Source: a virus
Virus record (IMG/VR): IMGVR_UViG_3300010148_000141
Coordinates: 1 to 21,963 of that record
Strand: one strand, 5' to 3'
DNA: 21,963 nt
Below the pieces are notes generated by a model. It worked only from the letters and a program-made list of their open reading frames with translations. It was not told where the DNA came from and did no database searches. This document shows positions 4,231 through 21,963 of this stretch, piece after piece. Both the position numbers and the translations under genes were made by a program. The stretch's first letter is position 1. Every line of letters starts with the position of its first letter.

Positions 4231-6111
4231 ATGCCAATAGCTAATGTATCAGACATAGTAGGTAGAAGAGACCTTGTAGCAGAAGCTCAAGGTTGGAGTG
4301 ACCAAATGATTAAGTGGAAGAAGCTTAAGATGATGCAGGAAGAGCATAAAGAGAAAACTAAACCCAAACCTTATAAATTTGATTTAGCTGAATTTGGAAC
4401 TGACAACGAGGCTATGCTTGGTTTACAGGAAGACTTAAATAACCAGGCTTATCAGTTTGCTATGGCCAACGCTGACGTTTTGAGAATAGACCCATACTCT
4501 GAAGATTGTGGACCAAATTGTAAAAGAGCACATAATGCTTTAAACAACATGAAAGGTGCAGCAAAAATATTCAACACATATGGTAATGATTTAAAAGATA
4601 GGTATGATTATTTATCTAGATTATACCACGAACAAGGAGATTTGTATGGCAACTCTGAAAATGCCCAAAAGCTAGTAGACATGCCAGGACTTTGGAAACA
4701 AGGTATGGCTGGTGAAACTTATAATTTTACTTTTGGTCCTGATGGAAGGTTGATGGTTGATGTAAAGAAAAAAAAACAAACTCAAAAAATTCAAACTGAC
4801 CCTGATGGAAATCCTGTTTTAAAAGATGGACAACCAGTAAAGATGTATATTGCTAAAGATGGTAACACAGAAGGAACTGAAGACCCCTCTAGAGCTGAGA
4901 AGGGTAAAGATGGTAATCCTTTACCTTTTATGGTAGATATGGATACAGGTCAAGATACTGACTTTGAGGTAACTCAAAAGAGTTTTGGAAACTTTTTAAC
5001 TGACTTAGGATTTAATGATGTTATTAAAAACACTGGAGCTGAAAATTTTGACAAAACTGTGTTTTCTTATTCTAAGATGGTAGATTTTGGAACAAATGAA
5101 ACAACTGGAGCTAAAAACTACGAAGACCATGAAAGAACGTCTAAACAAAAAATGGAAGCATTTATTTTTGGTGGCTCAGGTTCTTGGAATAATACAACTG
5201 GAACTGGTGATTTAGCTAGTCATTCCAGATATTTAGAAAAATTAGTACAACAAGACAAAGAGGAGGCTGATGATGCGACTCCAATAACAAAACAAGACCT
5301 TATTGATAAAGCTTATGAGTTAGGGAAAAGTTCATTAACTGGAAAGGACACTAAAAAAACAACTCAAGCTCAAACAGTGGAGCTTTATAATTTAGATATT
5401 CCTGGTGTAAACTATAAGACTACTGTTGATTACGATAATAATGGAAGTGTTATTCAGTCTGCAAAAATTGAGGATGGAGAATCAGTATCTTACCCTTTTC
5501 AGGGAAAAAGTTTCGCTACTGGTAGTTCTACTCAAAATTATATATCATTAAGTCATACAGTTAATCCTAACACCACAACCCTTACTACTGGTGATAACAA
5601 TTTTCAAACAGTTAATAGCAACACTGCTCTTGATTCTTTTGAGAAACCAAGAGATTTTCGTACTGGAACGATTGGTATTGCCCCATTTTATATTAACCCA
5701 ACAACTGGAAAGGGTAGGGCTTTATCTCAACAGGATTTAATAAAATTACAGGAAGAGTCTCCAGAGTTAGCAAAAAACATACAATTTAAAGTTGCTCTTT
5801 ATGGAAATATTGTTTTTAGTGGAACATCTGAGAAAAAGAAATTAGGGAATCTTGGAATACAATATACTGAAACTCAAGACAGTAAGGGTCTTTTGGTTCC
5901 AGCCATAGTAGAAGCTGGATTTTATGAAGAAAGAATTAAAGATATTAGAAGTTCAACTGACCCAAGTAAAACATCTAGAAATATAGAAACTTATGACAAT
6001 TTAACAATACAGGCAACAAATCAAACTAAAGCTTTTTTAGATGGTTTAACAGGTGATGTTCAGAATCAGAATCAACAAAATAATAATCCAGACCCATTAG
6101 GTATATTATAA
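4231..6111 (+). CDS. Unknown phage protein, probably structural/virion
   Basis: I do not recognise this 626-residue protein. It is soluble-looking, rich in Asn/Asp/Thr/Lys, with no signal peptide or membrane segment. Residues ~1-130 are probably helical and contain two close cysteines (D-C-G-P-N-C). The middle has short Asp/Gly turns (G-P-D-G-R, D-P-D-G-N) suggesting beta hairpins, and the last ~20 residues are Gln/Asn-rich. It starts 10 nt after the previous stop. Its TAA shares a base with the ATG of the giant gene (T-A-A-T-G at 6109-6113), so translation of the two is probably coupled. In podophages the gene just before a giant internal protein is often another internal or ejected virion protein. 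That is the best guess here, from position only. Confidence 0.6.
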   Translation: MPIANVSDIVGRRDLVAEAQGWSDQMIKWKKLKMMQEEHKEKTKPKPYKFDLAEFGTDNEAMLGLQEDLNNQAYQFAMANADVLRIDPYSEDCGPNCKRAHNALNNMKGAAKIFNTYGNDLKDRYDYLSRLYHEQGDLYGNSENAQKLVDMPGLWKQGMAGETYNFTFGPDGRLMVDVKKKKQTQKIQTDPDGNPVLKDGQPVKMYIAKDGNTEGTEDPSRAEKGKDGNPLPFMVDMDTGQDTDFEVTQKSFGNFLTDLGFNDVIKNTGAENFDKTVFSYSKMVDFGTNETTGAKNYEDHERTSKQKMEAFIFGGSGSWNNTTGTGDLASHSRYLEKLVQQDKEEADDATPITKQDLIDKAYELGKSSLTGKDTKKTTQAQTVELYNLDIPGVNYKTTVDYDNNGSVIQSAKIEDGESVSYPFQGKSFATGSSTQNYISLSHTVNPNTTTLTTGDNNFQTVNSNTALDSFEKPRDFRTGTIGIAPFYINPTTGKGRALSQQDLIKLQEESPELAKNIQFKVALYGNIVFSGTSEKKKLGNLGIQYTETQDSKGLLVPAIVEAGFYEERIKDIRSSTDPSKTSRNIETYDNLTIQATNQTKAFLDGLTGDVQNQNQQNNNPDPLGIL

Positions 6112-9100
6112 TGACTCAAGACGATAAAATAACAATAGAAGAATTAGCCCAAAGGTTAAAGGAAAAATATCCACAGTATCAATCGATGGATAACCAAGAA
6201 TTGGTTGATAAGGTTCTTTCCAAATATCCTGAGTATCAGAATGTCTTAAAAAAAAAAGACCAAAGCGAAGAAGACTTATTGGATGTGGAAGATGGTACAT
6301 CAGAGTTGGAAAATATTGGTTTGGACTCTTTACAAGCTGAAGAAAACACTCCAGTATACACAATAAATGGCGAAAACACTTCTAAAGAATCTGTACTAGA
6401 ATCTATAAATAATGATGAATTTATAGAGGGAGTTGTTAATGGAGATAATAATATAGATATTCAAAATGACGAAAGCACTTCTGAAATTCTTGTTAATAAA
6501 GTAAATGATTTTAATAATAAACAAGAAGAAAATAACAACACGCCTAATATAACCATAAATGAAGAAGCTGATGAAGAGCTTATAAAAACAGACCCAACTA
6601 AGGCTGTATCTAGAGAAAGCTTAGTCCCTATCCTTACCCAAGAAGATAAAATATCCCTAACAGGGGGGTTAACTAACAATGCAGTAAACCCTGTTGTAAA
6701 CCAGGCTTTAGCTGAAGTAAGAGATGTGTGGCCAGAGCAACCACTACTTAATATTGAGAGTGCTTATAGAGATGAAGAGCTAAATAAAAGCGTTGGGGGA
6801 CATGACCACTCTTACCATTTACATGGAATGGCTATAGACCTTACAGGCGATTCAGCAAAGGTGTTTTTAAATTGGGTTAACACAACTGAGGAAGGTAAAG
6901 CTTGGGCTGAAAAATGGACAGAAGGAGCTGATGGGGGTACTGGAATTATTTTAGAGTCAGAGGGAACTAGAAAAGAGCATGTTCATATACAGTTTAAAAA
7001 AGGACTTGGAAATCCTTTAACCAACTCTGAACCCTCAGCACTTCCTGAGGGAAATATGGAAACTATAGATAGAGTTTCTCAAACAAACCAGTCTGATGTT
7101 TCTGATGATGGATGGGTTTCAGGAGACACTCCAATGTTAAATCTTTCAGGAGTATCAAAAGAAGAAAAAAATAAGATACTATCTGAAATAGATGATACAT
7201 ACTCTAATTTTAATATAGAAGATGTATCTTCATTATATACTGAAAAAGAGTTAAAACACTTAAGAGACAAGCTAGAGTCTGAGGAGCTTATGGTCACTGG
7301 AGGTCGTACTCCAGGAGCAGTTAAAGAAAAGGGATTTGGCATAACAGACCCTTGGTGGAAATCTGACGAATACTTTAATGAATTAGTAAATAGACCAAGA
7401 AAAGTTATACAACAATATTTAAACAGTGGATGGGAGCATGTAGGAAATAGAAGCTACAAACATACTGAAACAGGAATTGTTATATCACCTGAAGACTCAG
7501 AGGGTAGAAACCCACTTATAGCAAATAGTTCTGCAATACCTGAGATGATAAAGTTATCTCAAGAAAATCCTGAATACTTGAGAGATTTGAATTATGTAAA
7601 AATAAAAGAACTATATGACAAGTTTAATCCAATTTTATCAAACTATTATCAACAAGAAATAGAGAAAAGTAGTGGAGATAAAAAAGAGCTTTTAGAGCAA
7701 GAGTTTAAAATTAATATGGGAGAGTTTGTTTTAGGTAAGACAAACAGTATGTTAAAGGGCTTGGAAAATAGCATTCCAGAGAGTGTTAATGAACAAACAA
7801 TAGAGGTTGGTAAAAAACTTTCTTTGATGGAGGACTGGTTAGTAAAACAACAAAAACTAATTAACTCATATCCTAAAACTGCATATGGATTTGTTGATAC
7901 TAGATATATGTCTGAGCAAGATATAGATAGTTATAATAGTTTAGTTAAAGACTATAACGAAAAGTATAATGGAATATATAAAAATCTATTAGGAGAACAA
8001 AATAAAATAATTGAAGACAACCCCAATTTAGGTGTTATAAACAATCTTTCAAGTGGATACAATGAGTCTGTTAAATATATCAATGCAGCTAGAGAAAATG
8101 AAATATGGAAATCCCATTATGATAAAATAATAAAGAGACAACAGGAGATAGATAAAGAGTGGAAGAACACACCTTGGACAGCAGTTCCAGCTTTTGCTCT
8201 AGCTCAAATTGCTTCAGACTTAACTGGAACAATGCTAAAAGGTATTGCTAGTGTTCCTGAGCAAATAAAAAGTATATTCTCTTATGAAAATGAATATGAC
8301 TTTACAGATAAAATATCAAGAGAGGTTGCTAAGGCTTGGGAAACATCTCCATTTAATATACCAAAACCAACTGCACTTAATAATGCTGAAGCTTTAGGTA
8401 AAGTTTATTCTTCAAATGTAGATGGAAACAACATTTACTTTGATGATAAAGGAAGAATAAAGCACATCCTAAATAAGGATGGATTAAAAGTTGAAGGTGG
8501 AACAGATGAATATAATAAAGCAGTAAAAGAATATAATGAAAATAAAGAAACATACCCTATAGAGGAAAGTTATCAGTGGGGAAATACTCTTTATAATGTT
8601 TTACATGCAGGTGGTGGTTTTGCTGTAGACATGGGACTTGCATGGTTAACTAGAGGTAGAGCAAAAAGTTTAGGTGCTGGTCTAAAAGCACAAAGATATG
8701 CTTTTGCAGGTGGATTAACTGGAGCAACAAACTTAAGAATGTATCATGGATTTAGAGAAGAGGCTATTAAACAGGGTTTATTACCTGGAGATGCTTCTAG
8801 GTTTGGTAATGAAGCTAGTGCTATAGTTAGTGCAATAGAATTATTAACACCTGATTTTGGTATGCTTAATGCATCAACTAAAAAGCTAGCAGCAAATGAA
8901 GTTTTTGATGCACTTTCTAGAACAACAAAGCAAGATGCAGTAGATAAAATAATTAGAAGAAACACTATAAATAATACGCTTTTTTATGGAACCATGGAAG
9001 GTTCTGAAGAGGTTTTTCAAAGTTTAGGTGTTGATGCACTTAAAGACAATTATTATCGTGAATATAACTTTGAAACAGAGGGTTTAAGTAGAAGGTCTGC

Positions 9101-12100
9101 AGAAGAGTTTTTAATTGGTGCTTTACTTGGGGGTGGTACAACTCTTGTATCTAATGTAAACACAAGTAGAGATTATATAGTAGATGACTTATATAAAGAT
9201 GCTCTTTTAACTTCCTACAACAACTATAAGTCTAAGGGTGGAAAGTCAGATATTTTTTCATACATAGACAACATGGTTGGTAAAAACATTGACCCTAAAA
9301 CCAAGTTTACTCAAACTGACGCTAAAAAAATGAAAGACAAGTTAACTAACCTTTTTGGAGAGTTAGATAATTTAGTTGGAGAGAATAAACTTTATGACAA
9401 TGACCTATCTAAAAGAGAGCTTTTAAACTTAGTGGAAGGCAAGAAAGTTGCTGAAGCACTTCAGGGTTCTTTAGACCCTGTTCAAGCTGAGTTAATGAAA
9501 AATAGAATAAAAGATTACGATAGTTCTATAAACAAAATACTCAAAGGGGCTGACCCAATAAAGGTTATGAGTGACCTTGCTATTAAAAATGACAATGCAG
9601 TAAATAACTATGTCAAAGGTTTTATGAAAAACACTGACATACCAGATGGGGCTAAAGCACTTATAAGACAGTTGTCATCTAATTCAATTACTACAGAGAG
9701 TCAGAAAAGGTTATATTTAGCTGCTTTATCAGAGGATATAAAGAGATTGGACAGTATGGACTCAGATAAGATGACAGATGTAGATAAAAAGAAACTAACC
9801 TTATACAAGAGAATAGAAAAAGATATTAACAATCTAAAAGTAAAAAAAGATGAAACAACAACTACCACTGCAACTGGAACAGAGGCTGGAAGAACTGCCA
9901 GAGGAACTGAAACTGAAGGTGTTGGAAAAGATACTGAACAGGCTGCAACAGAATCAGAAAAAACAACCCTCAATCAAAACATAGGTAAAAGGGTTTCTTA
10001 CAAAGGTAAAAAAGGAATACTTGCAAAAGACAAAAATGGTAATTTCATACTTAAACCTATAGGTAGGGGTAGGGGTGTGAAAATCAAAGGTGTTAAGAGG
10101 GGGAATATGAGAATGGGGACTGTTGGCCTTCAATATGAGGGGGCAAATATATCTGTTGATAATAATAATAATCTTACTATAGATGGACAAAATTCTGGAG
10201 AAATAGTTGGATTATATAAAGATGATTCAGGTGCTTTGGGTGGAGTGATTACTATTGACGATAAAGTTGGAGATTTAATTGTTAATAAAGATAAAACTAA
10301 ATCTAAGATTAGGAGACTTCAAAAAAGAAGAAACAATGGAGACATTTCTCAAAGAGAGTTTCTAAATAAAGTTAGAGAAATAGATGGTGTAAACATCTTA
10401 ACAGATAGTGATGTTAAGTTTGATGCTGCTTCTAATAAAGTTACAAACGATATTCTTAACGCTGGTGGTGTTGAGGTTATAACAATGGAGGATGTAGAAC
10501 AAATGATAGATGAGGCTATAAATGAGCTTGGTCAAGAATATCAGACAAAATCACAGAAAGCTAAACAAGAAAAATCTAATCAATCTAAAAGAAATAAAAA
10601 AGAAAATATAAAGCAAGAGAAGAGGTCTACTGAGCCCTTATTTGACTCAAGGTCTGGAACTGATATAGACTCCTTAATAGAAGAGTACGACAAGTTTGAG
10701 GGTGCAGAATACAGGGCAAAAGTTAGAATATTAAAACAAGCTAAGAACCTTTTTCAAACACAAGGACAAAGTGTTGTTATACATGATAATACTGAATCAG
10801 AAGTTGAATACTTTATAAACCAAGGATTTAACCCTGTCGAGGCAGTTAAATTAGCTGTAGGAGGTAATGGTTTTAATTTAGAGAGTGGTTTAGGTAATGA
10901 AGCAGTAATGCATATTAATTTTGAGCTAGCTAATGACAATACACTATTCCATGAGGCAGCTCATCCATTTGTAACATCTATATTTGAATATGCTAAACAG
11001 GGAAATAAAAATGCTAAGCAATTAGTTGAGAGCATAGAAAAAACATTACCAAAGGAATATTTAGACTTTGGATATAATCCAAAATCAGGATATGCAAAAG
11101 ACAAAAGTGGAAAAACACCATTGGATAAAAATGGCAATGTAGATAGAAAAAGGGTTACTAATAAATATGATTCAAATGGTCCACTTGCTGAAGCACTAGC
11201 TGAGTTTTTAGCAGATGCTGGTCTTAAAAAGTTTGATGATAATCAAAGCACTTTAAACAAAGCTATTAGTTACGCTAAATCAACTATAAGTTCAATACTT
11301 GGAATAGAAACTGATAATCCTGTAAACATAAGTCTAGAAGAGTTAAGTAACTTAACCAATATAGATGACGTTGCACAAATATTCAAAGAGTCTACATCAA
11401 GAGGGATGACAGTTAACGAGAAGGCCAGAGGTCAAGTTAAGCCAACAATTAAAAGACAAGTTGACAATTCTATCCCAGGTGAAGTTATTGCAGAAAATGT
11501 AACCATGACCAGCATAGACAGTGATGTTGGTCAAGATGTCTCACCCACTAATGTTGATAATGTAGAGAGGACATTTGAAGAGGGAGATGTTATAAGAGCA
11601 GATAGAGGTGATTATGAGGGGCAAACATTTACAGTTATAGCAGCAGATAGAGCTTTAACAGGTAATGTTAAGTCGCCAACAGGGGTGGAAATGGAGTTTA
11701 AAGGTGGAATGTATTTTCCATACGCTTTTAAAGGTTATGCTTGGGCTGTGCATGGTCCTGCAATTGGAACAAGACTTATTAACTCTGCTAAAGCAACAGA
11801 TGGCAGGGTTGCAGTAATGATTACAGGAGACAGAGGTATAGAGGGAAGTTTATTAATGTCTGAGTATATAATAAAAGAGTTCCAAAATGCTATAGATAAT
11901 AAAACAGCTAGTAAAAAAGATGTTCTAGAATTTATAAATGGGAAATTAAATAATAGGGCTATAAGAGAAGCTATAGACAAAAAAAAATTACTAGGCAATA
12001 GAAAAGGCATAAAAGATTTAGGTGAGATTATGCCTATATTTGAGCAACTAAGTTTTGCTGCAAGAAAATCATTTATTGAAAAAATTGTTGAATCCAAAGA

Positions 12101-15100
12101 CAGTACAATGAATAAATTTGGACTACCTGGTTCAGATGCAATTTTAGATTGGGTAAATGACCCAGACTTAAAAAATATTAGGAACTCAAGTGTAGTTTCT
12201 ATGGTTCAAATTGATGTAAACGACCCTAATGTAATTGTTGATACACAATCATCTGATTATGATGGGCCAATTCATGAGTCTTACAGGTATCTCATTAAAG
12301 GGAGTCCAATAACTGTTCTTAACAAGTCTATTCCTATTGAGGACCTAGTAGAATCTTATAGGGGTGAGAAATACTTGGAAAAAGGAAAGTTTTCCACAAG
12401 TAGAGCAGGATATGCAGTAGCTCAGTCAATGCCAGAAGTTAAGTTTCAAACATATGGAGACAATGGGTTTTCAGCATTAGATTCTGCTTTAGAATTTACA
12501 GACATAAACAGTGGTACACCAAAACAGTGGATAAAAGAAATAAAAAGAGTTGGAGATAGAAACACTCTTAATGAACTAAAGTTTGTGGGAATGAGAGATT
12601 TCTTAAAGTCTGTTGAAAGGTCTTACGCTGATGGACTTATACCAAAAGCTGCTATTCAAGATTATATATCTATGAATAATACCTCTATAGATATAGAAGA
12701 AAATACTATGAGAATTAGTAACCCTATGCTTGACTTGTCTACTGTAACTTTTGAAGATATAACAAACGAAGATGGTGAGAGAGTTTTATTAATAAGAGAT
12801 ATAAAGGCACCAAATAAAGATATGATGTCTAATACTCCACCAACAATAAGAACATTAATTAAGTTTGCTTCAGACAATAATTATGATTCTATTGCTTTTG
12901 AAAATGGCAACAAATTTAAAGGTTCAAAATCAGAGTTCTTTGATAGCGTTGTTCCTGAAGTTGTTAATGACATTATATCAGATATTAACCCAGGTCAAGG
13001 TGTGGTTTTAACTAGTGTTGATAATGTTGGCTATGTATCTGTTGATGTAACAAACCAAGTAACAAGTCTATCTGAGGATATGAGCAATCCATCTTCTAAA
13101 GAAGGATTTTTTGATAATAAAGATAAATTATTCTATACAACAAACCCTAAGTTTCAAAAATCTAACAGAATAAATTCTTTTAAAGAGTTTTTATTTGGAC
13201 AAGAACCCCTTGGGGAACAGATAATTAGAGAACTTAAACCAACAGGAAATATACCTAGAGAGGTTTTTGATTTAGGTGTACAATCTAAAAGCAATATTGA
13301 TGCAGAAAAGTTTGAGTTAAAAAAATTAATTGACAAACTTAGAAATATAATAGAAAGCAATCAGCAGAGTGGTAATCCAATATCATTAAGAGAAATAAAT
13401 GATGCACTAACAGACCCAACTGCTAAAATAAAATCATTAAACTCAGAGCTGTCTCTATATGAGAGTGATTTAGAAACGCTGGATAGAAATAATAAAAGCT
13501 ATGCTGCTGGTGTTGTTTTAGAAAAAATAAAAGACGTTGAGAAAACAATAAAAGAACTTAAGGATGGTCACGCAGGTAGAGCAACAGTAAAAGATTTAGA
13601 TTCTGCACCTGAGCTTCAAGACATGGTTAAAAAAGTTAGAAGAAAAATAGACTCTTTAAGTAAGAAATTGAAAAGCGTTGTTACAGATGGTCTTGGGGTT
13701 ACTATTGATGAAAACTTAGGCATATATATAAATAGACAATATAGAATATTTAATGACCAAAAATATAGAGAAAATATGGAGAACCTTATTAGCTCTATGA
13801 TTGAAGAAAAAGTTAGAACAGGTAAAATAAAAGAATCTATAGAGGGATTCGAAAGAGAGTATAATGTTATACAGAGTGCTATGAATTTCTTTGCAGAAAA
13901 ATATAAGAAGCACCTTAGCCAACAGGGACTTCCATCTGAGGAAATAAGTGAAGAGAGAGTTTTAAGGTTTGTTTCTGAGCTTTTCTTTAATAAGGATGAG
14001 AGAAGTGACTTTGTTTCATCTGTTCTTAAAACAAGAGATATTAATACCAGTATTTTTACCACAAGAAAAGATATACCTGATGCTATAAAAGATTTATATA
14101 GTCCAATAGAAAACCCTGTTTATAATATAGTCAATTCATTAACTAAAATGGTTGACGAATATGAAACAATGTACTTCAAAGCTTCTGCAGTTGAATCCTT
14201 AAATGGAACTTTTGTTTTTGATTCATCAAACAGACCTTTAGGTGAAGGTGGTAAGAAATATAGCAGCAAGTTTACTATAAAGTTTAACAACAAAACTTAT
14301 TATACAACTCAAGAACTTAAAGACTTTATTGAAGGCGAAGAAATAACCTTTAGTAAACCAATGAGAGTAGCACAATTTGTTAATGGTGTTATAAAGATTG
14401 GTAAAACTATTTGGTCTCCAAAAACTCACGTAAGAAACTTCTTTGGTAACATGTATTTTGCAGCCATTAATGGACATACTCCTGGTTCAAACTTTTTAGA
14501 AAGCTGGAGGATTATGCAAAATTTATTCGAAAAAAGCACAACCCAAGAGAGAGAAGATATGTTTGCCACAATGATTAGAGCTGGAATAATAGATTCTGTT
14601 TATGCAGACGAGTTAAAAGCTATATTGAAAGATGGTAATTTAGGTAAGCTTGGAGTTGAGTTATTTGAGAACAATGCAGATATAGATGTTATAAAAAAGA
14701 AAAATCCTGGTATTTTAAAAACAATTAATGACTTTACAAATAAAGCTTATCTATTTGAAGATGTTGTTTGGAAGGGTGCAGGTTTCTTAAGTGAGCTTCA
14801 GTTATATTTAGATGCAGGTTATACTAGAGAACAGGCTTTAAAAGAGGCCTCTGACAACATAAGAGGAGGATATACTACATATTCTCTTGTTCCTAAATTA
14901 GGTAAAAGACTTAGAAGAACAATACTTCTTAGTGATTTCGTATCATTCCCTGCTGAAGTTTTAAGAACAAGTTTAAATTCACTTTATATAGCACAAAAAC
15001 AGATAAGGTCAGGAAATAGAACATTAATGATACATGGCTTTAAAAGGTTATTTGGAATATATTTTGCAGTAAAAACAATGCCTCATATTATGACTGGACT

Positions 15101-16280
15101 AGCCACCTTTTGGGGTACAATACTTGAGTTTATTAAGAATCTATTTGATGATGAGCCTGAAGAAGGAGAAAACGATTTTATGAACTGGAAGCTCATGAAT
15201 GGAAAACAAGATATAGTTGGAGGATGGGAGTTTTTTGAAAACCTATCTGATTATTACGACAAAAAGAAAAAATTTGACTGGGAGCAAACTGGATTAGATG
15301 ATATAGATAGAGAAAAAATAATACAACTGTTTGCACCTGCTTGGATGAAATATGGAGATGTAAAACTTATCTCTGCTCAGTCAAATGAAAATGGACAATT
15401 CGATGGCACAATGTATGTATGGAACTCAAGCGATAATATGTCTGACGCTTTATGGAGGAGAGTTATAAATGCTCTTTCTAATACACCTGAAGATGACCCT
15501 ACGTTTAGAAAATATAATTACAGAGGAGACGTTCTCCCTATGATAGATGATGTTTTACACGCTGCCATTGAACCTTTTGTGAATAAAAGTATGTTAACTC
15601 AATTAACTGAAGAGATTATACAAAACAAAAAACAATCTGGAGGTAATATATCTAGCGATGACGATTCATGGTTTGAGGTTGTAGGTAAAAACTTTAAACA
15701 TGGATTAAAAAGTGTCGCACCTGGATTTGCTACACAAATTTACGACCTAATGGAGAGTTGGCAACCTGATTTATTTATGAGTGAAGAGGAATTAAAATAC
15801 AGTAAAAAAAGTTTTTTACATGAAGCTATGTCTTTCACTGGTAATAGATTCTCTAGATTTAATATACAAGAAAACTTTAATTATAAAGTTAGAGATGTTG
15901 TAACCAGCTTAAATGAGCTAAGACCAAAGGGAGAAAGTAGCAGGAAAATGAAAAAATATGTCAAAAGACAAATAGAATATTTAGATAAATTATATATTTA
16001 CTCTGAATTTTTTGGTATAGAAACAGAAGGGGTAAAGAAAGCTTTAATGAAAACTATGGATGATAGGTTTGATACAAACCAAAGCAACAGAGATAATATA
16101 ATTAGTCAATATGTTCGTGGATATGGTTTTGGAGAGGATATATACAACTTCTTAAATAGAGATAGGGTTTCTGTGCCTGACTTTGAAACATGGTCAAAGT
16201 CTAACGACTGGTCAGAGTTTTTGAAAAATTGGCAAACAGAACAAATACAAGAAACAATAGAAAAAGAATTAAGTGAATAA
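6111..16280 (+). CDS. Giant polyvalent virion protein with peptidase domains
   Basis: This 3389-residue protein is probably an internal virion protein ejected with the DNA. Residues ~8-45 hold two K-Y-P-x-Y-Q motifs, a recurrent N-terminal feature of phage internal proteins. Residues ~190-300 are an M15/VanY-like peptidoglycan peptidase: S217-A-Y-R220, S234-Y-H236-L-H-G239-M-A241-I-D243, and E289-H-V-H292 fit the S-x-x-R, S-x-H-x-x-G-x-A-x-D and E-x-x-H metal/catalytic motifs. Hydrophobic, Ala/Gly-rich stretches at ~689-716, 828-885 and 995-1016 could insert in membranes. A Thr/Glu-rich linker covers ~1247-1287 and a Lys-rich tract ~1479-1506. H1614-E-A-A-H1618 with E1694/E1698 downstream looks like a zincin centre. 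Residues ~1865-2270 recall polyvalent-protein domains (G-T-P-K-Q-W at 2135; Y-D-S-I-A-F near 2260). A coiled coil covers ~2400-2525. W-S-P-K-T-H-V-R-N near 2766 begins a LPD38-like region, with a hydrophobic segment at ~2980-3014. No frameshift is visible. Confidence 0.8.
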   Translation: MTQDDKITIEELAQRLKEKYPQYQSMDNQELVDKVLSKYPEYQNVLKKKDQSEEDLLDVEDGTSELENIGLDSLQAEENTPVYTINGENTSKESVLESINNDEFIEGVVNGDNNIDIQNDESTSEILVNKVNDFNNKQEENNNTPNITINEEADEELIKTDPTKAVSRESLVPILTQEDKISLTGGLTNNAVNPVVNQALAEVRDVWPEQPLLNIESAYRDEELNKSVGGHDHSYHLHGMAIDLTGDSAKVFLNWVNTTEEGKAWAEKWTEGADGGTGIILESEGTRKEHVHIQFKKGLGNPLTNSEPSALPEGNMETIDRVSQTNQSDVSDDGWVSGDTPMLNLSGVSKEEKNKILSEIDDTYSNFNIEDVSSLYTEKELKHLRDKLESEELMVTGGRTPGAVKEKGFGITDPWWKSDEYFNELVNRPRKVIQQYLNSGWEHVGNRSYKHTETGIVISPEDSEGRNPLIANSSAIPEMIKLSQENPEYLRDLNYVKIKELYDKFNPILSNYYQQEIEKSSGDKKELLEQEFKINMGEFVLGKTNSMLKGLENSIPESVNEQTIEVGKKLSLMEDWLVKQQKLINSYPKTAYGFVDTRYMSEQDIDSYNSLVKDYNEKYNGIYKNLLGEQNKIIEDNPNLGVINNLSSGYNESVKYINAARENEIWKSHYDKIIKRQQEIDKEWKNTPWTAVPAFALAQIASDLTGTMLKGIASVPEQIKSIFSYENEYDFTDKISREVAKAWETSPFNIPKPTALNNAEALGKVYSSNVDGNNIYFDDKGRIKHILNKDGLKVEGGTDEYNKAVKEYNENKETYPIEESYQWGNTLYNVLHAGGGFAVDMGLAWLTRGRAKSLGAGLKAQRYAFAGGLTGATNLRMYHGFREEAIKQGLLPGDASRFGNEASAIVSAIELLTPDFGMLNASTKKLAANEVFDALSRTTKQDAVDKIIRRNTINNTLFYGTMEGSEEVFQSLGVDALKDNYYREYNFETEGLSRRSAEEFLIGALLGGGTTLVSNVNTSRDYIVDDLYKDALLTSYNNYKSKGGKSDIFSYIDNMVGKNIDPKTKFTQTDAKKMKDKLTNLFGELDNLVGENKLYDNDLSKRELLNLVEGKKVAEALQGSLDPVQAELMKNRIKDYDSSINKILKGADPIKVMSDLAIKNDNAVNNYVKGFMKNTDIPDGAKALIRQLSSNSITTESQKRLYLAALSEDIKRLDSMDSDKMTDVDKKKLTLYKRIEKDINNLKVKKDETTTTTATGTEAGRTARGTETEGVGKDTEQAATESEKTTLNQNIGKRVSYKGKKGILAKDKNGNFILKPIGRGRGVKIKGVKRGNMRMGTVGLQYEGANISVDNNNNLTIDGQNSGEIVGLYKDDSGALGGVITIDDKVGDLIVNKDKTKSKIRRLQKRRNNGDISQREFLNKVREIDGVNILTDSDVKFDAASNKVTNDILNAGGVEVITMEDVEQMIDEAINELGQEYQTKSQKAKQEKSNQSKRNKKENIKQEKRSTEPLFDSRSGTDIDSLIEEYDKFEGAEYRAKVRILKQAKNLFQTQGQSVVIHDNTESEVEYFINQGFNPVEAVKLAVGGNGFNLESGLGNEAVMHINFELANDNTLFHEAAHPFVTSIFEYAKQGNKNAKQLVESIEKTLPKEYLDFGYNPKSGYAKDKSGKTPLDKNGNVDRKRVTNKYDSNGPLAEALAEFLADAGLKKFDDNQSTLNKAISYAKSTISSILGIETDNPVNISLEELSNLTNIDDVAQIFKESTSRGMTVNEKARGQVKPTIKRQVDNSIPGEVIAENVTMTSIDSDVGQDVSPTNVDNVERTFEEGDVIRADRGDYEGQTFTVIAADRALTGNVKSPTGVEMEFKGGMYFPYAFKGYAWAVHGPAIGTRLINSAKATDGRVAVMITGDRGIEGSLLMSEYIIKEFQNAIDNKTASKKDVLEFINGKLNNRAIREAIDKKKLLGNRKGIKDLGEIMPIFEQLSFAARKSFIEKIVESKDSTMNKFGLPGSDAILDWVNDPDLKNIRNSSVVSMVQIDVNDPNVIVDTQSSDYDGPIHESYRYLIKGSPITVLNKSIPIEDLVESYRGEKYLEKGKFSTSRAGYAVAQSMPEVKFQTYGDNGFSALDSALEFTDINSGTPKQWIKEIKRVGDRNTLNELKFVGMRDFLKSVERSYADGLIPKAAIQDYISMNNTSIDIEENTMRISNPMLDLSTVTFEDITNEDGERVLLIRDIKAPNKDMMSNTPPTIRTLIKFASDNNYDSIAFENGNKFKGSKSEFFDSVVPEVVNDIISDINPGQGVVLTSVDNVGYVSVDVTNQVTSLSEDMSNPSSKEGFFDNKDKLFYTTNPKFQKSNRINSFKEFLFGQEPLGEQIIRELKPTGNIPREVFDLGVQSKSNIDAEKFELKKLIDKLRNIIESNQQSGNPISLREINDALTDPTAKIKSLNSELSLYESDLETLDRNNKSYAAGVVLEKIKDVEKTIKELKDGHAGRATVKDLDSAPELQDMVKKVRRKIDSLSKKLKSVVTDGLGVTIDENLGIYINRQYRIFNDQKYRENMENLISSMIEEKVRTGKIKESIEGFEREYNVIQSAMNFFAEKYKKHLSQQGLPSEEISEERVLRFVSELFFNKDERSDFVSSVLKTRDINTSIFTTRKDIPDAIKDLYSPIENPVYNIVNSLTKMVDEYETMYFKASAVESLNGTFVFDSSNRPLGEGGKKYSSKFTIKFNNKTYYTTQELKDFIEGEEITFSKPMRVAQFVNGVIKIGKTIWSPKTHVRNFFGNMYFAAINGHTPGSNFLESWRIMQNLFEKSTTQEREDMFATMIRAGIIDSVYADELKAILKDGNLGKLGVELFENNADIDVIKKKNPGILKTINDFTNKAYLFEDVVWKGAGFLSELQLYLDAGYTREQALKEASDNIRGGYTTYSLVPKLGKRLRRTILLSDFVSFPAEVLRTSLNSLYIAQKQIRSGNRTLMIHGFKRLFGIYFAVKTMPHIMTGLATFWGTILEFIKNLFDDEPEEGENDFMNWKLMNGKQDIVGGWEFFENLSDYYDKKKKFDWEQTGLDDIDREKIIQLFAPAWMKYGDVKLISAQSNENGQFDGTMYVWNSSDNMSDALWRRVINALSNTPEDDPTFRKYNYRGDVLPMIDDVLHAAIEPFVNKSMLTQLTEEIIQNKKQSGGNISSDDDSWFEVVGKNFKHGLKSVAPGFATQIYDLMESWQPDLFMSEEELKYSKKSFLHEAMSFTGNRFSRFNIQENFNYKVRDVVTSLNELRPKGESSRKMKKYVKRQIEYLDKLYIYSEFFGIETEGVKKALMKTMDDRFDTNQSNRDNIISQYVRGYGFGEDIYNFLNRDRVSVPDFETWSKSNDWSEFLKNWQTEQIQETIEKELSE

Positions 16281-16282
16281 CT

Positions 16283-16783
16283 ATGAAACTAGAAGTAGCA
16301 AGAATATCAAGTGGACCAGATTCCACATCAGGAATATTATTTATAATAGATGACGCAGCAGATAGTCCCCATAGCGAGGGCTACAGATGTAAAAAAAGTT
16401 TTGTGTGTTACACATTAGAAGATGAAAAAAGAGATGAGAAAGTATTTGGAGAAACTAGAATCCCTGCTGGGACATATAAACTTAAACTCAGAACAGAGGG
16501 TGGATACCATCAAAAATATTCTAAGCGATTTCCTGATATTCATAGGGGCATGCTTCATGTCACTGATGTTCCTAATTTTGAGTATATTCTCATTCATTGT
16601 GGCAATACTGATGAACATACTGCAGGTTGTTTACTCGTTGGTGACTCGCAAGAAAACAATCAAATAATGGAAAATGGATTCATTGGAAAGTCCACTCAAG
16701 CTTATAAAAGAATATATCCAAAGATAGCAGAAGCACTACTTAATAACAAAGAAGTGTTAATAACTTACAAGAACATTGCATAA
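16283..16783 (+). CDS. DUF5675 family protein
   Basis: This 166-residue protein matches the DUF5675 pattern as I recall it: C-Y-T-L-E-D-E, G-E-T-R-I-P-A-G-T-Y, a K-Y-x-x-R-F-P segment, then I-L-I-H105-C-G-N108 and T113-A-G-C116-L-L-V-G. The family's biochemical role is not established to my knowledge. The His...Gly-Cys arrangement loosely resembles the active site of L,D-transpeptidase folds, so a cell-wall role is possible but unproven. It starts 2 nt after the stop of the giant virion gene and has no Shine-Dalgarno, so it is part of the late + strand operon. A second, hydrophobic ORF lies inside it in another frame (listed separately). The family assignment is fairly confident; the function is open. 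Confidence 0.75.
   Translation: MKLEVARISSGPDSTSGILFIIDDAADSPHSEGYRCKKSFVCYTLEDEKRDEKVFGETRIPAGTYKLKLRTEGGYHQKYSKRFPDIHRGMLHVTDVPNFEYILIHCGNTDEHTAGCLLVGDSQENNQIMENGFIGKSTQAYKRIYPKIAEALLNNKEVLITYKNIA
16422..16667 (+). CDS. Candidate nested membrane protein inside the DUF5675 gene (uncertain)
   Basis: This 81-codon ORF lies wholly inside the DUF5675 gene, shifted +1. Its product has a charged N-terminus (M-K-K-E-M-R-K), a hydrophobic stretch of about 35 residues (roughly 36-73), and a basic tail ending R-K-K-T-I-K. That is the layout of a small holin or spanin-like membrane protein. No ribosome binding site is visible, but most genes here lack one. A convincing 3-TM holin exists at 18312-18722, so a second one is not required. 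It may be a chance product of reading a beta-rich gene out of frame. Confidence 0.18.
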   Translation: MKKEMRKYLEKLESLLGHINLNSEQRVDTIKNILSDFLIFIGACFMSLMFLILSIFSFIVAILMNILQVVYSLVTRKKTIK

Positions 16784-17767: not shown

Positions 17768-17911
17768 ATGAAAAGAATGGGTTTTGGCTTTCAGTTCTCT
17801 AATGGAATCTTATTTGGAATAAGACACTACGAGCCTGATGAAAAGTGTGATTACTATGAAGTACACTTTTACTTTGGGTTATTTGTTTTTTTTATTACGA
17901 TTGAATACTAA
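17768..17911 (+). CDS. Small conserved phage protein, 47 aa
   Basis: The protein begins M-K-R-M-G-F-G-F-Q-F-S-N-G-I-L-F-G-I-R-H and continues Y-E-P-D-E, ending in an aromatic, hydrophobic segment (Y-F-G-L-F-V-F-F-I-T-I-E-Y). I recall short phage/flavobacterial proteins with the same plan (start, G-I-R-H-Y, acidic turn, aromatic beta strand) and no known function. It starts 1 nt after the preceding stop. Its TAA (17909-17911) overlaps the TAG of the convergent - strand gene. The hydrophobic end is too short and polar-flanked to be a clear membrane anchor. Confidence 0.6.
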   Translation: MKRMGFGFQFSNGILFGIRHYEPDEKCDYYEVHFYFGLFVFFITIEY

Positions 17912-18054
17912 ACTCTAGACTTTATAGAATTTACTTTAGCCTGAAGCTCACTAACCTTAGATTCAAACCTTGCTCTTTTTATTTTTTTTCTGAGAGTATT
18001 AAGCATTGTTAGTTTTTCTCTCCACGCTTTCTTTTTCGCATTAGCTTTTCCCAT
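17908..18054 (-). CDS. Small basic helical protein, 48 aa
   Basis: The reading runs from ATG at 18054 to TAG at 17908. The protein starts M-G-K-A-N-A-K-K-K-A-W-R and ends Q-A-K-V-N-S-I-K-S-R-V. It is Lys/Arg-rich with a heptad-like pattern from about residue 15, so a single basic amphipathic helix or coiled coil is likely. Its start overlaps the end of the preceding coiled-coil gene by 14 nt. It is the last gene of the - strand cluster, and its stop overlaps the stop of the convergent + strand gene. I do not recognise a family. Confidence 0.55.
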   Translation of the reverse strand: MGKANAKKKAWREKLTMLNTLRKKIKRARFESKVSELQAKVNSIKSRV

Positions 18055-18331
18055 CAGTTTTTTCAATTGGTGTAAACACACCCTCCTCTAAATTAATTGT
18101 ACCATCTCCATATTTCTTCTTTAGTTTTTCTGTAAGTTTAGCTTCTTTAGATTGATTGCCTTTAAACTTGGCTGTCATATCGTTTTCTAGTTTTTCAAGT
18201 TCTGTTAACCTAGCTTTAACAAGTATGATGTCCATTTTGATTCTTCCAAAATCAAATGTCATTCTACTGTTTTCTGCTCTTAAGTCTTTTATTTCTTTTA
18301 GTTCTTTTTCTTCAATTTTTATTGTTTCCAT
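18041..18331 (-). CDS. Coiled-coil phage protein
   Basis: This 96-residue protein is mostly coiled coil (residues ~5-75, rich in Glu/Lys/Leu) and ends with K-K-Y-G-D-G-T-I-N-L-E-E-G-V-F-T-P. That closing motif is one I recall from a common group of small phage proteins of unknown role. It overlaps the end of the holin gene by 20 nt and the start of the 48-residue gene by 14 nt. A partner of the holin or a small structural protein is possible, but nothing in the sequence decides this. Confidence 0.65.
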   Translation of the reverse strand: METIKIEEKELKEIKDLRAENSRMTFDFGRIKMDIILVKARLTELEKLENDMTAKFKGNQSKEAKLTEKLKKKYGDGTINLEEGVFTPIEKTDGKS

Positions 18332-18722
18332 TTTCTTTAATTTTATTGTTAATTTTTACCTTCTCGATGGAACGACCAGCGAAATAGGCTGAATACACGC
18401 AAAGTAGCAAAGTTTGATAAATTGGGACGTATGCTGGTGAAATTGAAAACTCACCAAGATTCCCATCAAACACTGATATAACCACAAACACGAATGTTAA
18501 AAATATTAATGTTAGTGGTCTTATATTTGCTGGTAACCATCCAGCTTTAGCGTCAGCTTCCCACCTTCTCGTTACCTGTTCTTGAGCACTAGCTTTCGCA
18601 TTCTCAATCATTGTTTTCATCTGCAGTTTCAGAGATAATTTCTCCTCCTCTGTTGTTACCACCTCATCAATAATATTTGAAGCATTACCAATTAGTGATT
18701 TAAATAGTCCTCCTAGCATCAT
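18312..18722 (-). CDS. Holin, 3-TM superfamily
   Basis: This 136-residue protein has the layout of the GTA/phage 3-TM holin superfamily. An amphipathic helical N-terminal half (residues ~1-50) is followed by R-R-W-E-A-D-A-K-A-G-W-L-P-A-N-I-R-P, which is the family signature. Hydrophobic segments lie at ~70-86 and ~97-116, followed by F-A-G-R-S-I-E-K and a basic tail. Holins form lesions in the inner membrane to start lysis. The start is M-M; either ATG is possible. It overlaps both neighbours (23 nt upstream, 20 nt downstream). It lies in the cluster that also encodes the helicase rather than in the late + strand arm. Confidence 0.85.
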   Translation of the reverse strand: MMLGGLFKSLIGNASNIIDEVVTTEEEKLSLKLQMKTMIENAKASAQEQVTRRWEADAKAGWLPANIRPLTLIFLTFVFVVISVFDGNLGEFSISPAYVPIYQTLLLCVYSAYFAGRSIEKVKINNKIKENGNNKN

Positions 18723-19302
18723 GTTTTGTTTTGCGTGAGTATTTCTTTTTATTTTTATATGGCTTAGACCTTAAGTCCATTCCATTATTCTTAGCCTCAA
18801 TTTCAGAATCTCTTCTTGTCATTTTAGCTATCCTTTTTTTATCTGCCTCTGATATTTTAAGTTTCTCCTTTATCATATCAATACATTGAAGTATTTGTTT
18901 TTTACTTCCAGGCATGTAAAGTTCGTAATTTAAGTTGTTTTTTACAAGGTATTGTTTAAAAAGTTTCCATTTTAAATTAAAAACATCTGTCTTCATTCCC
19001 TTCACCTCTATTATCCATCCATCCTTAAGGTTTGTGAAGTCAGGTAAGTAGGTTGTGGACCTGATACCAGTCAAGGCCTGGTCAAACACCAACTTACCTT
19101 TCTTCTTTCTTTTCTCTATACTAACACCTTCATACCTAAACTTGTCCATCAGTATAAATTTTTCCTTTTCGTAGTCAAATTTTATACCTTCTTTTTTTAG
19201 TTCTGAGTAGGTAAAGGCTTCAAGTCTAGACCTAAATTCTATACCATCAATCTTAGTAATCTGAACATTCTTTACCCTACCTCTAGTCTTCCTATTTTTC
19301 AT
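18700..19302 (-). CDS. DUF1064-like PD-(D/E)XK nuclease
   Basis: This 200-residue protein begins with a basic stretch, then I-D-G-I-E-F-R-S-R-L-E28-A-F-x-Y-x-E-L-K. It continues with T-T-Y-L-P-D88-F and W-I-I-E99-V-K101-G. E28, D88, E99 and K101 fit the PD-(D/E)XK active site as arranged in the DUF1064/phage endonuclease family. The last ~50 residues are Lys/Arg-rich, suggesting DNA contact. It overlaps the secreted-protein gene by 11 nt and the holin gene by 23 nt. The likely role is a structure-specific or recombination endonuclease; the exact substrate cannot be read from sequence. Confidence 0.75.
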   Translation of the reverse strand: MKNRKTRGRVKNVQITKIDGIEFRSRLEAFTYSELKKEGIKFDYEKEKFILMDKFRYEGVSIEKRKKKGKLVFDQALTGIRSTTYLPDFTNLKDGWIIEVKGMKTDVFNLKWKLFKQYLVKNNLNYELYMPGSKKQILQCIDMIKEKLKISEADKKRIAKMTRRDSEIEAKNNGMDLRSKPYKNKKKYSRKTKHDARRTI

Positions 19303-19705
19303 AGTCTAATATAGGAACATTAGAAATATATTCCAAACCACGCCATTCTGTGGAGCTTTTATACCAGCCTGTTTCATTGTTGAAATTATAAAACAAAACA
19401 GCCATATCTCCACTCACTTCCAACCTGTCCCCAAATGGAACAGCATAACAATGATAGCCATCTGAATCAAGACCTATATATATAGCAGGAAAACTATTCC
19501 CTGTATCTTTATGTTTTCTATATATTCTAAATCCCCAATCAGTTATGTGCATTAACCTTGAGCCTTCAGAAATGTAGGAATTAATTTCCTCCCCCTCTGA
19601 CCAGTCAAAATTAACAGTTTCATTTACACTGTAAACTCCAGTCTTAACTTGTGCAAACCCTTGAAACGACAAGAGTATAAACACGAAAAAAAATGCTTTC
19701 TTCAT
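19292..19705 (-). CDS. Secreted/periplasmic protein with signal peptide
   Basis: This 137-residue protein starts M-K-K then a hydrophobic core F-F-F-V-F-I-L-L-S-F and a likely cleavage site at G-F-A / Q-V. A Gln right after the cleavage site is typical of Bacteroidetes exported proteins. The mature part (~118 residues) is aromatic-rich with one Cys and looks beta-rich. No family was recognised. Exported proteins are unusual in phage early or replication clusters. Possible roles include superinfection exclusion, envelope modification or a host-derived cargo gene, all inference. A short AT-rich gap of 31 nt with A-T-T-A-A repeats precedes it, and it overlaps the nuclease gene by 11 nt. Confidence 0.7.
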   Translation of the reverse strand: MKKAFFFVFILLSFQGFAQVKTGVYSVNETVNFDWSEGEEINSYISEGSRLMHITDWGFRIYRKHKDTGNSFPAIYIGLDSDGYHCYAVPFGDRLEVSGDMAVLFYNFNNETGWYKSSTEWRGLEYISNVPILDYEK

Positions 19706-19736
19706 AATAAATTAAATTAAATTAGTAATAAATTAA

Positions 19737-19985
19737 CTACTCGTCCAGAGAAACTTCCTCTGGTTTTTTTACACTAATACTTTTACTCAGTATTATTTCT
19801 AAGAAATAGTCGTAGTGTTTATTGTAATCTTTCTCAGCGTCTTCTGTATATTTTGCACCCACGTAATTATCATAAGTTTCCTCGTAAGGTGAAAACCCCA
19901 TAGCTTCATATTTTTTTTCTATTTTCTTTTGAGCTAGCCTTCCTGCCAACTGCTCTGCATGTATTTTAATTGTTGTATAACACAT
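19737..19985 (-). CDS. Unknown protein, 82 aa
   Basis: The protein starts M-C-Y-T-T-I-K-I-H-A-E-Q-L-A-G-R-L. It is highly charged and probably helical at the start, then rich in Tyr/Asp/Glu. It has no membrane segment and a single Cys, at position 2. The M-C-Y start followed by a helix with A-E-Q-L faintly recalls the first residues of SRAP/HMCES-type proteins, but it is far too short and lacks the rest of that domain. It is preceded by an AT-rich leader and, further upstream, by the structured element at 20016-20091, which may lie in its 5' leader. Confidence 0.5.
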   Translation of the reverse strand: MCYTTIKIHAEQLAGRLAQKKIEKKYEAMGFSPYEETYDNYVGAKYTEDAEKDYNKHYDYFLEIILSKSISVKKPEEVSLDE

Positions 19986-20015
19986 AATATATATATTAAT
20001 TAATACTCAGTTAAT

Positions 20016-20091
20016 ATAAGGGCACCTGTCAAAGAACACAATTTGAGGTTGGTGATGACCAAATCTAAAAACCTCACACAGGCACCCTTAT
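20016..20091 (-). promoter_or_regulatory. Structured intergenic RNA element
   Basis: Read as - strand RNA, AUAAGGGUGCCUGU (20091-20078) pairs along all 14 bases with ACAGGUGCCCUUAU (20029-20016), including two adjacent G-U wobbles. On the + strand the same two positions would be C/A mismatches, so the structure favours - strand transcription, matching the surrounding genes. Inside the loop, UGAGGUU pairs with AACCUCA, and GGU-CAUC-ACC forms a small hairpin beside it. The element begins 1 nt after the stop of the upstream gene and ends 30 nt before the next ATG. No U-run follows, so it is not an ordinary terminator. It could be a leader control element, an RNA processing/stability element or a small RNA. 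Confidence 0.5.
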
Positions 20092-20092
20092 T

Positions 20093-20356
20093 TTAATGTA
20101 CATCATTGCTCATTCCACATTTCTCTCTCCATTTCCATCCAGTTATTTTAACATCAACATTTTGCGTTGACTTTACTATTCTTTTCATTCTAGATATTAA
20201 AAACTCATTGTCATTTAATTCTTTTAAAGTGTCTCCAATTGCAGCAGTAACGTATGTTTCTTTATTCTTTTTTTGCGTGTCTTTTCTAACACCCTTCACC
20301 ATTCTCCAAGTGTTCCATTCGTACTCAAGTTCAATGTGCCATATTTGTTTTCTCAT
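20093..20356 (-). CDS. Unknown protein, 87 aa
   Basis: I choose the ATG at 20356 (M-R-K-Q-I-W-H-I-E-L) rather than the in-frame GTG at 20389. The ATG overlaps the TGA of the preceding small gene in a 4-nt A-T-G-A junction, a common coupling arrangement. The longer version would run 37 nt into that gene. The product is basic and Trp-rich (W-H-I-E-L-E-Y-E-W-N-T-W near the start, G-W-K-W near the end), with a probable central helix. It has no membrane segment or recognised family. The structured element follows its stop almost directly. Confidence 0.6.
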   Translation of the reverse strand: MRKQIWHIELEYEWNTWRMVKGVRKDTQKKNKETYVTAAIGDTLKELNDNEFLISRMKRIVKSTQNVDVKITGWKWREKCGMSNDVH

Positions 20357-20532
20357 TTTGTAAATATCTGTATATCCTCTACGTGACACATTTTATTTCT
20401 GCAAGTGTAGTGGCCCACAATTCCATCACCCTCCAAACCATAATCATCATAATCAAAGTCAGAGTTCCATAGCAATTCCTTCCTACATATTGAACAAATT
20501 ATACCTTCTTCTTCATCTTCCCTATATAACAT
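20353..20532 (-). CDS. Small four-cysteine zinc-ribbon-like protein, 59 aa
   Basis: The reading runs from ATG at 20532 to TGA at 20353. The protein starts M-L-Y-R-E-D-E-E-E-G, then C13-S-I-C16, an Asp/Tyr-rich middle (D-F-D-Y-D-D-Y), then Y-T-C44-R-N-K-M-C49-H. Two cysteine pairs ~30 residues apart suggest a zinc ribbon or similar zinc knuckle. It overlaps the nuclease gene upstream by 34 nt and the next gene downstream by 4 nt (A-T-G-A), which supports it being a real gene. The net acidic charge argues against simple DNA binding; a protein-interaction role is possible. Confidence 0.62.
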   Translation of the reverse strand: MLYREDEEEGIICSICRKELLWNSDFDYDDYGLEGDGIVGHYTCRNKMCHVEDIQIFTK

Positions 20533-20951
20533 AAGTCTATTGTTTTAATTTTTGTAAATAAATCTTTAGCCCCTGGCCTGGTTGCCATCTCGTAGAAATC
20601 CCAACCTTTAACCTTGTCTATACATTTGTCGTGAACAAACTCTTGTAAGTCATCTTTTTTAACCTCTATCCAATAATCTTCTGTCTCAAAGGCAAAACCA
20701 TCTGCCTCACCATAGAGCCATCCCCTTTTACCTAAAACATTCTTAAACTCAACAAAATGTATGTTCTCATCGTTTTTTTTAATTGCTTTAACATCTATCT
20801 TAACTCCATTTATTTCTAAATCCCAATGCTCACTGCAATCTTCTTCTTCTGTTGGGAGCCTTACATTCTTATAGAGTTTAGCATACTCTTTTTCAGCATG
20901 CTTGCCCCTTATCATATCTTCCTTTTTCTTTTTTTTACTCTTGTATTTCAT
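20499..20951 (-). CDS. PD-(D/E)XK nuclease-like protein
   Basis: This 150-residue protein starts with a Lys-rich stretch, then R-G-K-H-A-E20-K-E-Y. It continues with H-W-D44-L-E-I-N-G-V-K-I-D53-V-K55-A, which fits the (P)D-x(n)-D/E-x-K core of restriction-endonuclease-like folds. A later segment, K-N-V-L-G-K-R-G-W-L-Y-G-E-A-D, is one I recall from phage relatives. It lies directly after the helicase gene (17-nt overlap), so a role in DNA replication, recombination or host DNA breakdown is likely. It is distinct from the DUF1064-like nuclease downstream. Confidence 0.68.
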   Translation of the reverse strand: MKYKSKKKKKEDMIRGKHAEKEYAKLYKNVRLPTEEEDCSEHWDLEINGVKIDVKAIKKNDENIHFVEFKNVLGKRGWLYGEADGFAFETEDYWIEVKKDDLQEFVHDKCIDKVKGWDFYEMATRPGAKDLFTKIKTIDLCYIGKMKKKV

Positions 20952-21963
20952 GAAACTTAGTTAACTCCCTCTGAAATTTCAATCCCAGAACGCCTGTTCC
21001 AATATTCCTACCTTTAGCAAATATAATTTCTGCCAATCCTTCTGTGCTATTTCCTTTATCATCCTGCGTTATACCATAATACTCTGGTCTATAAACCAAG
21101 ACCACAACATCTGCTGCTTGTTCTATTTCTCCTGACTCTCTTAGGTCAGCTATAGTTGGTCTACTTTCAGACCTTTGACCTACACCTCTGTTCAGTTGGG
21201 ATAGAGCAATAATAGTTACATTAAGTTCTTTTGCTATATTCTTTAGTGCTCTAGCAACCTCAGAAACTTCCTGCTCTCTGCTCCTCCCTTTTTTATCGTT
21301 AGATACTAGTTGTAGGTAGTCAACCATAAATAACTTCACCTTCTTGGTTATAACGTATTGTCTTATCCTGTTAAGAAGATGTTTTAGAGAGGAGGAGGAG
21401 CATTCATCAACATACAGGGGTACTCTTTCTATTCTTCCTACACTTTCATATATTTTACTTAATTCTGTTTGGTCTAATGTTCCTTTCATTATCCATTTAT
21501 TATCTATTCCTGAGTCAGATGATACAAGCCTGCTCAGTAGCTGTTGTGAACTCATCTCATAAGAGAATAAGCAGGTAGGTGTTTTACCATAGAATGCACT
21601 ATTAAATGCAAAGGCAAGGGCAAGAGAAGTTTTCCCCATTGAGCTAGCACCCCCCACGATGACTAGGTCAGTCTCTTGCCATCCACCTGTAAATTTATCA
21701 AGGCTTTCAAAACCTGTTGTTATTCCATTTAGACCCTCATTGTTCATTTTATACTCAATGCTTTTCATAAGTCCATTGAGTTGCTGAGAAACATCTACTA
21801 TATTGTCCTTACTAACATTACCTATCTTGCCAACCTCTTGTTCGACAAAATCAACTATCTCAAAGACATCCTCACCATCATTAATCATCTTAGATATTTT
21901 ATGATTCATATCTAATAGTTGTTCCTTCTTCTTTTTCTCATTAAGTATAAGTATGCAGGTTAA
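20935..21963 (-). CDS. dnaB: Replicative DNA helicase, DnaB type (5' partial)
   Basis: The frame stays open from the ATG at 21909 to the window's right edge, adding 18 codons (ending E-Q-L-L-D before that Met), so the real start is outside and 342 residues are visible. Numbering from that Met: Walker A is G87-A-S-S-M-G-K93-T94; the catalytic Glu is S-Y-E118-M-S; Walker B is F-M-V-D197-Y-L-Q-L; the sensor Gln is S-Q238-L-N-R; L-R-E-S-G-E-I-E-Q-A-A-D follows; and the arginine-finger loop is A-K-G-R301-N-I-G-T-G. This is a complete RecA-like C-terminal domain, with a helical linker before it. The protein unwinds DNA ahead of the phage fork as a hexamer. A DnaB of usual length (~440-470) would need ~100 or more residues beyond the edge. 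Confidence 0.9.
   Translation of the reverse strand, partial: LTCILILNEKKKKEQLLDMNHKISKMINDGEDVFEIVDFVEQEVGKIGNVSKDNIVDVSQQLNGLMKSIEYKMNNEGLNGITTGFESLDKFTGGWQETDLVIVGGASSMGKTSLALAFAFNSAFYGKTPTCLFSYEMSSQQLLSRLVSSDSGIDNKWIMKGTLDQTELSKIYESVGRIERVPLYVDECSSSSLKHLLNRIRQYVITKKVKLFMVDYLQLVSNDKKGRSREQEVSEVARALKNIAKELNVTIIALSQLNRGVGQRSESRPTIADLRESGEIEQAADVVVLVYRPEYYGITQDDKGNSTEGLAEIIFAKGRNIGTGVLGLKFQRELTKFHEIQE

Follow-up and report, generated by a model that had tools for sequence, protein, structure and literature searches.

Small RNAs encoded beside phage tRNA genes are represented by RNA C and RNA D of phage T4, which are reported to be expressed and to have no known role or function (PMC3014915, PMC9697503). 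The R1.1 element of phage T7, located between genes 1.0 and 1.1, is an RNA of 60 nt, reported to contain an asymmetric internal loop of 4/5 nt (PMC6121014). The manA and wcaG motifs of T4-like cyanophages are structured RNAs which were reportedly detected by comparative genomics, mainly in marine metagenome and phage sequences (PMC2864571).

The stretch analyzed here, referred to as the window, comprises 21,963 nt (positions 1 to 21,963 of IMG/VR virus record IMGVR_UViG_3300010148_000141). It carries a structured element of 76 nt on the minus strand (20016–20091), which was delimited by fold, model search, and covariation. By comparison of related sequences, we show that the coding strand carries here a structured RNA that is conserved and is gained and lost as a unit. 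A literature search, limited to the accessible portions of the texts, returned no description of it, and we class it as a new family, outside of Rfam 15, of small structured phage RNAs.

Structure and covariation of the element

The outer stem P1 is formed by the arms AUAAGGGUGCCUGU (5′ arm, 20078–20091, minus strand) and ACAGGUGCCCUUAU (3′ arm, 20016–20029, minus strand), as supported by covariation and by a hand-made pairing. In the window it consists of 14 uninterrupted pairs, with a U-G and a G-U pair side by side, which confirms the stem of the original prediction. The covariation-supported inner stem P2 pairs GAGGUU (5′ arm, 20070–20075, minus strand) with AACCUC (3′ arm, 20045–20050, minus strand) and reaches seven pairs when a flanking U-A is counted. 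The P2 loop of the window holds a 3-bp hairpin (GGU-CAUC-ACC). An inner helix and a small hairpin had both been predicted within the loop; both are present in the window, and P2 covaries among the relatives, but the hairpin is not conserved, with all three pairs found in only two of the ten distinct versions (window and L002). The minus strand folds with −27.0 kcal/mol (z −3.93), and 1 of 200 shuffled sequences was equally good. Within a context of 181 nt the stem is kept, at a z of only −0.75. The plus strand of the window also folds (−23.7 kcal/mol, z −4.07), so that strand specificity is not readable from the window sequence by itself, and the proposal that the element pairs only when read from the minus strand was overstated for a single sequence.

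Alignment A8 contains the ten distinct versions and was fitted to the model, which favors the structure; 98.7% of its 226 cells are paired. Both sides changed in 8 of the 23 pairs, a value reached by 1 of 500 shuffles, and in 26 cells, a number reached by none of 500 shuffles. The covariation score was 0.416, compared to 0.233 for shuffled and at most 0.133 for slid alignments. All P1 cells are paired, with changes on both sides in 5 of 15 model pairs; for P2 this holds for 3 of 8 model pairs, while GAG/CUC is invariant in all ten versions. RNAalifold applied to A8 returned the same two helices, and the earlier MAFFT alignment A6, taken alone, is 100% paired, with both sides changed in four pairs. 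Both helices thus covary in related phages. Some relatives with the same gene order lack the element as a whole, which had been named as evidence against the prediction if a covarying stem were missing there; the fold is nevertheless found in every existing copy. The outcome of this check is mixed, though it can be explained.

The sense strand folds significantly in all ten versions (z −4.15 to −7.07). In the hand-made pairing of the ten versions, the 219 cells comprise 199 Watson-Crick pairs, 20 G-U pairs, and no A-C pair; the inner helix of L002 was given four pairs, with a further U-G and U-U left out. As the lines are kin, the 20 G-U cells do not represent 20 events. A-C cells would be expected if the opposite strand were the selected RNA, and their complete absence beside 20 G-U cells indicates selection on the minus-strand RNA, as predicted. 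In L019, the sense strand has a z of −5.7 and the opposite strand of −1.1; in the other nine versions the opposite strand still folds (z −2.8 to −6.2). Model R2 assigns 67.7–94.2 bits to the sense strand and at most 30.9 bits to the other strand.

Two unpaired motifs are kept in all ten distinct versions. One is UCAUCACC in the apical loop (20051–20058, minus strand; family UCRUY(N)CC), which ends this loop. The second is UGUUC in the 3′ strand of the internal loop (20034–20038, minus strand). The remaining parts of both loops vary in length and sequence. Such conservation is more than would be expected for a plain hairpin, although in this narrow family it is based on few independent lineages. 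When the complementarity of the two loops to phage sequence was analyzed for 11 sequences, no target was consistently above shuffled loops (except for the element's own other strand), so that pairing of the loops with a phage target lacks support. A pseudoknot between the apical loop and the UGUUC strand, hinted at by AUUUG-CAAAU in the window, was discarded since, as judged by eye, it is lost in L005, L006, and L011. The boxA-like sequence GUUCUUUGACA of the window was rejected as a shared function because, among the ten versions, only the window and L002 have it.

Element length varies between 72 and 76 nt in steps that are not divisible by three, which makes a conserved small protein unlikely. 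Rfam 15 yielded no match in the window at gathering score, and matches over the element at E values up to 10 were weak and far below the gathering scores. The element was also rejected as being a tRNA, because RF00005 matches only the neighboring tRNA, in five relatives, and ARAGORN found no tRNA in the window.

Distribution among related phages

With the upstream helicase gene as query, 80 loci were retrieved from viral_contigs. Among these, 31 loci with a close g98 (within L001–L036) were classified by what lies between g98 and the gene that follows it. The element alone is present in 3 of them (L001, L002, L034), a tRNA followed by the element in 10 (L005–L007, L010–L014, L019, L035), the tRNA alone in another 10 (L003, L004, L008, L009, L020–L025), and neither of the two in 8 (L016–L018, L028–L030, L032, L033). 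Two contigs from a pattern scan (L085, L091) have both tRNA and element; the window has the element alone. In total, 16 phage contigs including the window bear the element, in 10 distinct versions.

Model R1, which was built on the six sequences of alignment A6 with the window not among them, recovered the window element with 41.4 bits and an E value of 2.4e-7 (701,042 bases searched). A match of this quality, obtained with a model from six other sequences, exceeds chance. The 28 matches of R1 comprise the 16 sense copies, 11 matches to the opposite strand of these same copies, and one match in L037 (E 8.7), which we take as chance. Of 29 records searched as a whole, 10 have a strong match, with one copy per record. 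Weak additional matches in those records were found in G018 (E 0.117), where the match overlaps an open frame on the opposite strand and was judged to be chance, and in G026 (E 0.744).

Pattern scans of viral_contigs together with model screening revealed no element outside the clade. A search of 295 genomes from the class to which an Aquimarina belongs gave no match, which is a weak negative since it had no positive control and scored few candidates in each genome; a search of plasmids and phages with the element of L010 gave none either. When phages were searched with the element of L006, two records of one Bacteroides phage were obtained (E 0.2, inside a helicase gene), which were judged to be chance. 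Among the best matches listed for the helicase in phages are Riemerella and Cellulophaga phages (36–39% identity) as well as a Marinomonas and a Burkholderia phage at similar identity; a host from the Bacteroidota is weakly suggested.

In 12 of the 16 element-bearing contigs, a tRNA-Arg(UCU) gene is located directly 5′ of the element on the same strand, at the site which corresponds to position 20092 (minus strand) of the window, where the tRNA is absent. The original prediction did not include this gene, which neighbors the element in most relatives. The tRNA end is separated from the element stem by 3 or 7 bases. ARAGORN detected tRNA-Arg(UCU) in 13 of the 25 loci scanned; for the loci without a scan, the tRNA was read from near-identical sequence. 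It is a single gene without an encoded CCA, placed centrally in the early operon (L005:5692-5766 and equivalents). As AGA accounts for 73% of the arginine codons in six window genes (211 codons), a tRNA-Arg(UCU) suits the codon usage. Five of the contigs with the tRNA only (L020–L022, L024, L025) carry a small UGGUG...CACCA hairpin directly 3′ of the tRNA, at the place which the element occupies in others.

According to a tree of 24 helicases (without support values, and with L085 and L091 left out), the tRNA is older, and the element was gained once, in the clade of the window. It was lost at least three separate times (L003/L004, L008/L009, L016–L018), and the tRNA is missing from the window and from L002. 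Gene g82 first appears in the same clade and on the same tree stretch as the element, and both are absent from L008/L009. Judged by this reconstructed history, the element behaves as an accessory cassette.

Position within the early operon

The gene names g98, g82, g137, g150, and g200 were coined here after protein length. The element is oriented in the sense direction of the minus-strand early operon, with a DnaB-type helicase gene nearby, upstream. It starts one base past the stop codon of g98 (20093–20389, minus strand, 98 codons; likely start at 20356 according to the conserved alignment) and is separated at its other end by 30 bases from the ATG (19985) of g82 (19737–19985, minus strand, 82 codons; the protein begins with MCYTT). 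No known family was matched by g98, and g82 had no Pfam or PHROG match above the cut-off. Distant homologs of g82 are found at other positions in the outgroup phages L028, L032, L022, and L027.

Element and g82 are connected by a 30-nt leader (19986–20015, minus strand), of which the AGTATTAA part is kept in relatives without the element; this part reads GTATTAA in the element-less L016–L018. From the element to the g82 start, the distance is a constant 29–31 nt in all nine cases measured, and g82 is the downstream gene in all 13 element-bearing loci compared. Both g82 and its leader stay in place without the element in 5 of the 31 relatives (L003, L004, L016–L018), and g82 is thus independent of the element.

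The 3′ side of the stem continues with AUUAACUG. An intrinsic terminator was rejected because a U-run does not directly follow the stem, and the region 17800–21963 contains no terminator-like site on the minus strand. The original prediction had placed the element directly between two genes and without the U-run of a terminator, which agrees with these results.

Bacteroidota-type promoters follow the pattern TTTG-N-TANNTTTG. This pattern occurs three times in the window (2.5 expected), none of them close to the element, and shows no excess over chance in L179 and L016. Near-alike A+T-rich leaders (AATTTAATTTAATTTATTATG and similar) are found at 19706–19730 of the window (minus strand) and at L010:1290-1316. 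They are followed by unrelated genes and perhaps represent a common translation-start signal.

Elsewhere in the window, an ORF of 3389 codons (6111–16280) is present in a contig of no more than 22 kb, and a related frame of more than 2900 codons is present in L179; it probably codes for a giant virion-associated protein. An ORF of 81 codons (16422–16667), located in another frame within a 166-codon gene, codes for a hydrophobic stretch and is also open in L179 (8948–9193). It is a possible overlapping gene for a membrane protein.

Possible functions

In our preferred reading, to which we give about an even chance, the element is a gene of about 76 nt for a small structured RNA not described before, which would be processed from the early operon and act in trans. 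The RNA would be excised from the operon transcript; in the relatives with a tRNA, the 5′ cut would be made a few bases upstream by tRNA 3′-end processing. With its ends locked in a stem of 14–15 bp, the RNA might survive and might then act in trans via its two conserved loops. Such an accessory function may be useful in some hosts only. In a more specific variant, which we regard as improbable, the element would mimic the top half of a tRNA and divert tRNA-acting host enzymes or defense proteins as a decoy. The T-loop motif of a tRNA is located about 17 nt from the 3′ end; the element has a T-loop-like GUUC at 16–18 nt from its 3′ end and an acceptor-like helix of 14–15 bp. As a tRNA mimic, it would have evolved beside tRNA-Arg(UCU) and could persist without it.

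Because the g82 spacer is constant and the transcript is a predicted one, a role in cis, as a processing site or mRNA 5′ stabilizer, has to be reckoned with; taken together, we place the cis readings somewhat short of an even chance. Possible, although on balance doubtful, is a hairpin of the polycistronic mRNA that acts as an RNase III-type site or as a 5′-end stabilizer, as in T7 early mRNA, and would determine where the g82-g137-endonuclease-holin message downstream of it begins. The intercistronic position on the coding strand fits this, as does the 29–31 nt distance to the g82 start in 9 of 9 cases, and g82 joined the locus on the same tree stretch as the element. The stems of 14–15 and 4–9 bp around a one-sided internal loop also roughly resemble the R1.1 layout as described, but the internal loop of 1–2 versus 11–15 nt is unlike that of R1.1. 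Conserved unpaired motifs are unnecessary for such a site, g82 is found without the element in five relatives, and at least three losses argue against an essential processing step. This persistence of g82 in 5 of the 31 relatives also speaks against a riboswitch-like or protein-bound 5′UTR element that controls g82, which we consider unlikely even though the g82 start is about 30 nt downstream and g82 follows in 13 of 13 element-bearing loci compared. In addition, the 181-nt fold shows no alternative pairing that hides the g82 start, and model R2 finds no element where g82 homologs lie elsewhere (L022, L027, L028, L032).

A function at the DNA level only, as a cruciform or as a recombination or replication signal, would be in line with a long inverted repeat near a DnaB-type helicase gene, with the folding of the opposite strand, and with the cassette-like gain and loss. 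It is nevertheless highly improbable, given the 20 G-U versus no A-C cells and an opposite strand which hardly folds in L019 (z −1.1).

Comparison with known systems

Like manA and wcaG, the element is a structured RNA detected in phage sequence by comparative genomics; those motifs are reported as probable cis regulators, and the element matches no Rfam family. Its layout, a hairpin between genes in which two stems flank an asymmetric internal loop, is partly like that described for T7 R1.1. This loop has 4/5 nt in R1.1, while that of the element is much larger and one-sided (1–2/11–15 nt), and the element differs further by its conserved loop sequences and patchy presence. A T7 stretch of approximate placement, when folded, lacked a hairpin of the described R1.1 form and was not used.

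A parallel in setting is found in T4, where tRNA-Arg(UCU) is followed on the same strand by rnaD and rnaC (T4 stretch L180). RNA C (species 1) and RNA D (species 2) are thus, like the element in 12 of its 16 contigs, encoded directly 3′ of tRNA-Arg(UCU). They are 139 and 119 nt long and have other predicted folds, compared to 72–76 nt for the element, and model R2 had no match in L180 at E values up to 10. The T4 site has eight tRNAs, whereas the phages with the element have one. Expression of RNA C and RNA D is documented, whereas that of the element is predicted. Judged by these comparisons, the element has a comparable setting and is not homologous to the T4 RNAs.

Small RNAs known from phages are few, and a covariation-supported RNA family of uncultivated phages, which is absent from Rfam, is now added to them. 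Its close relatives form a natural comparison set, with the element only, the tRNA only, both, or neither at one locus. Since this is a second, unrelated case of an extra RNA beside tRNA-Arg(UCU), the question of why phages keep such RNAs there becomes testable.
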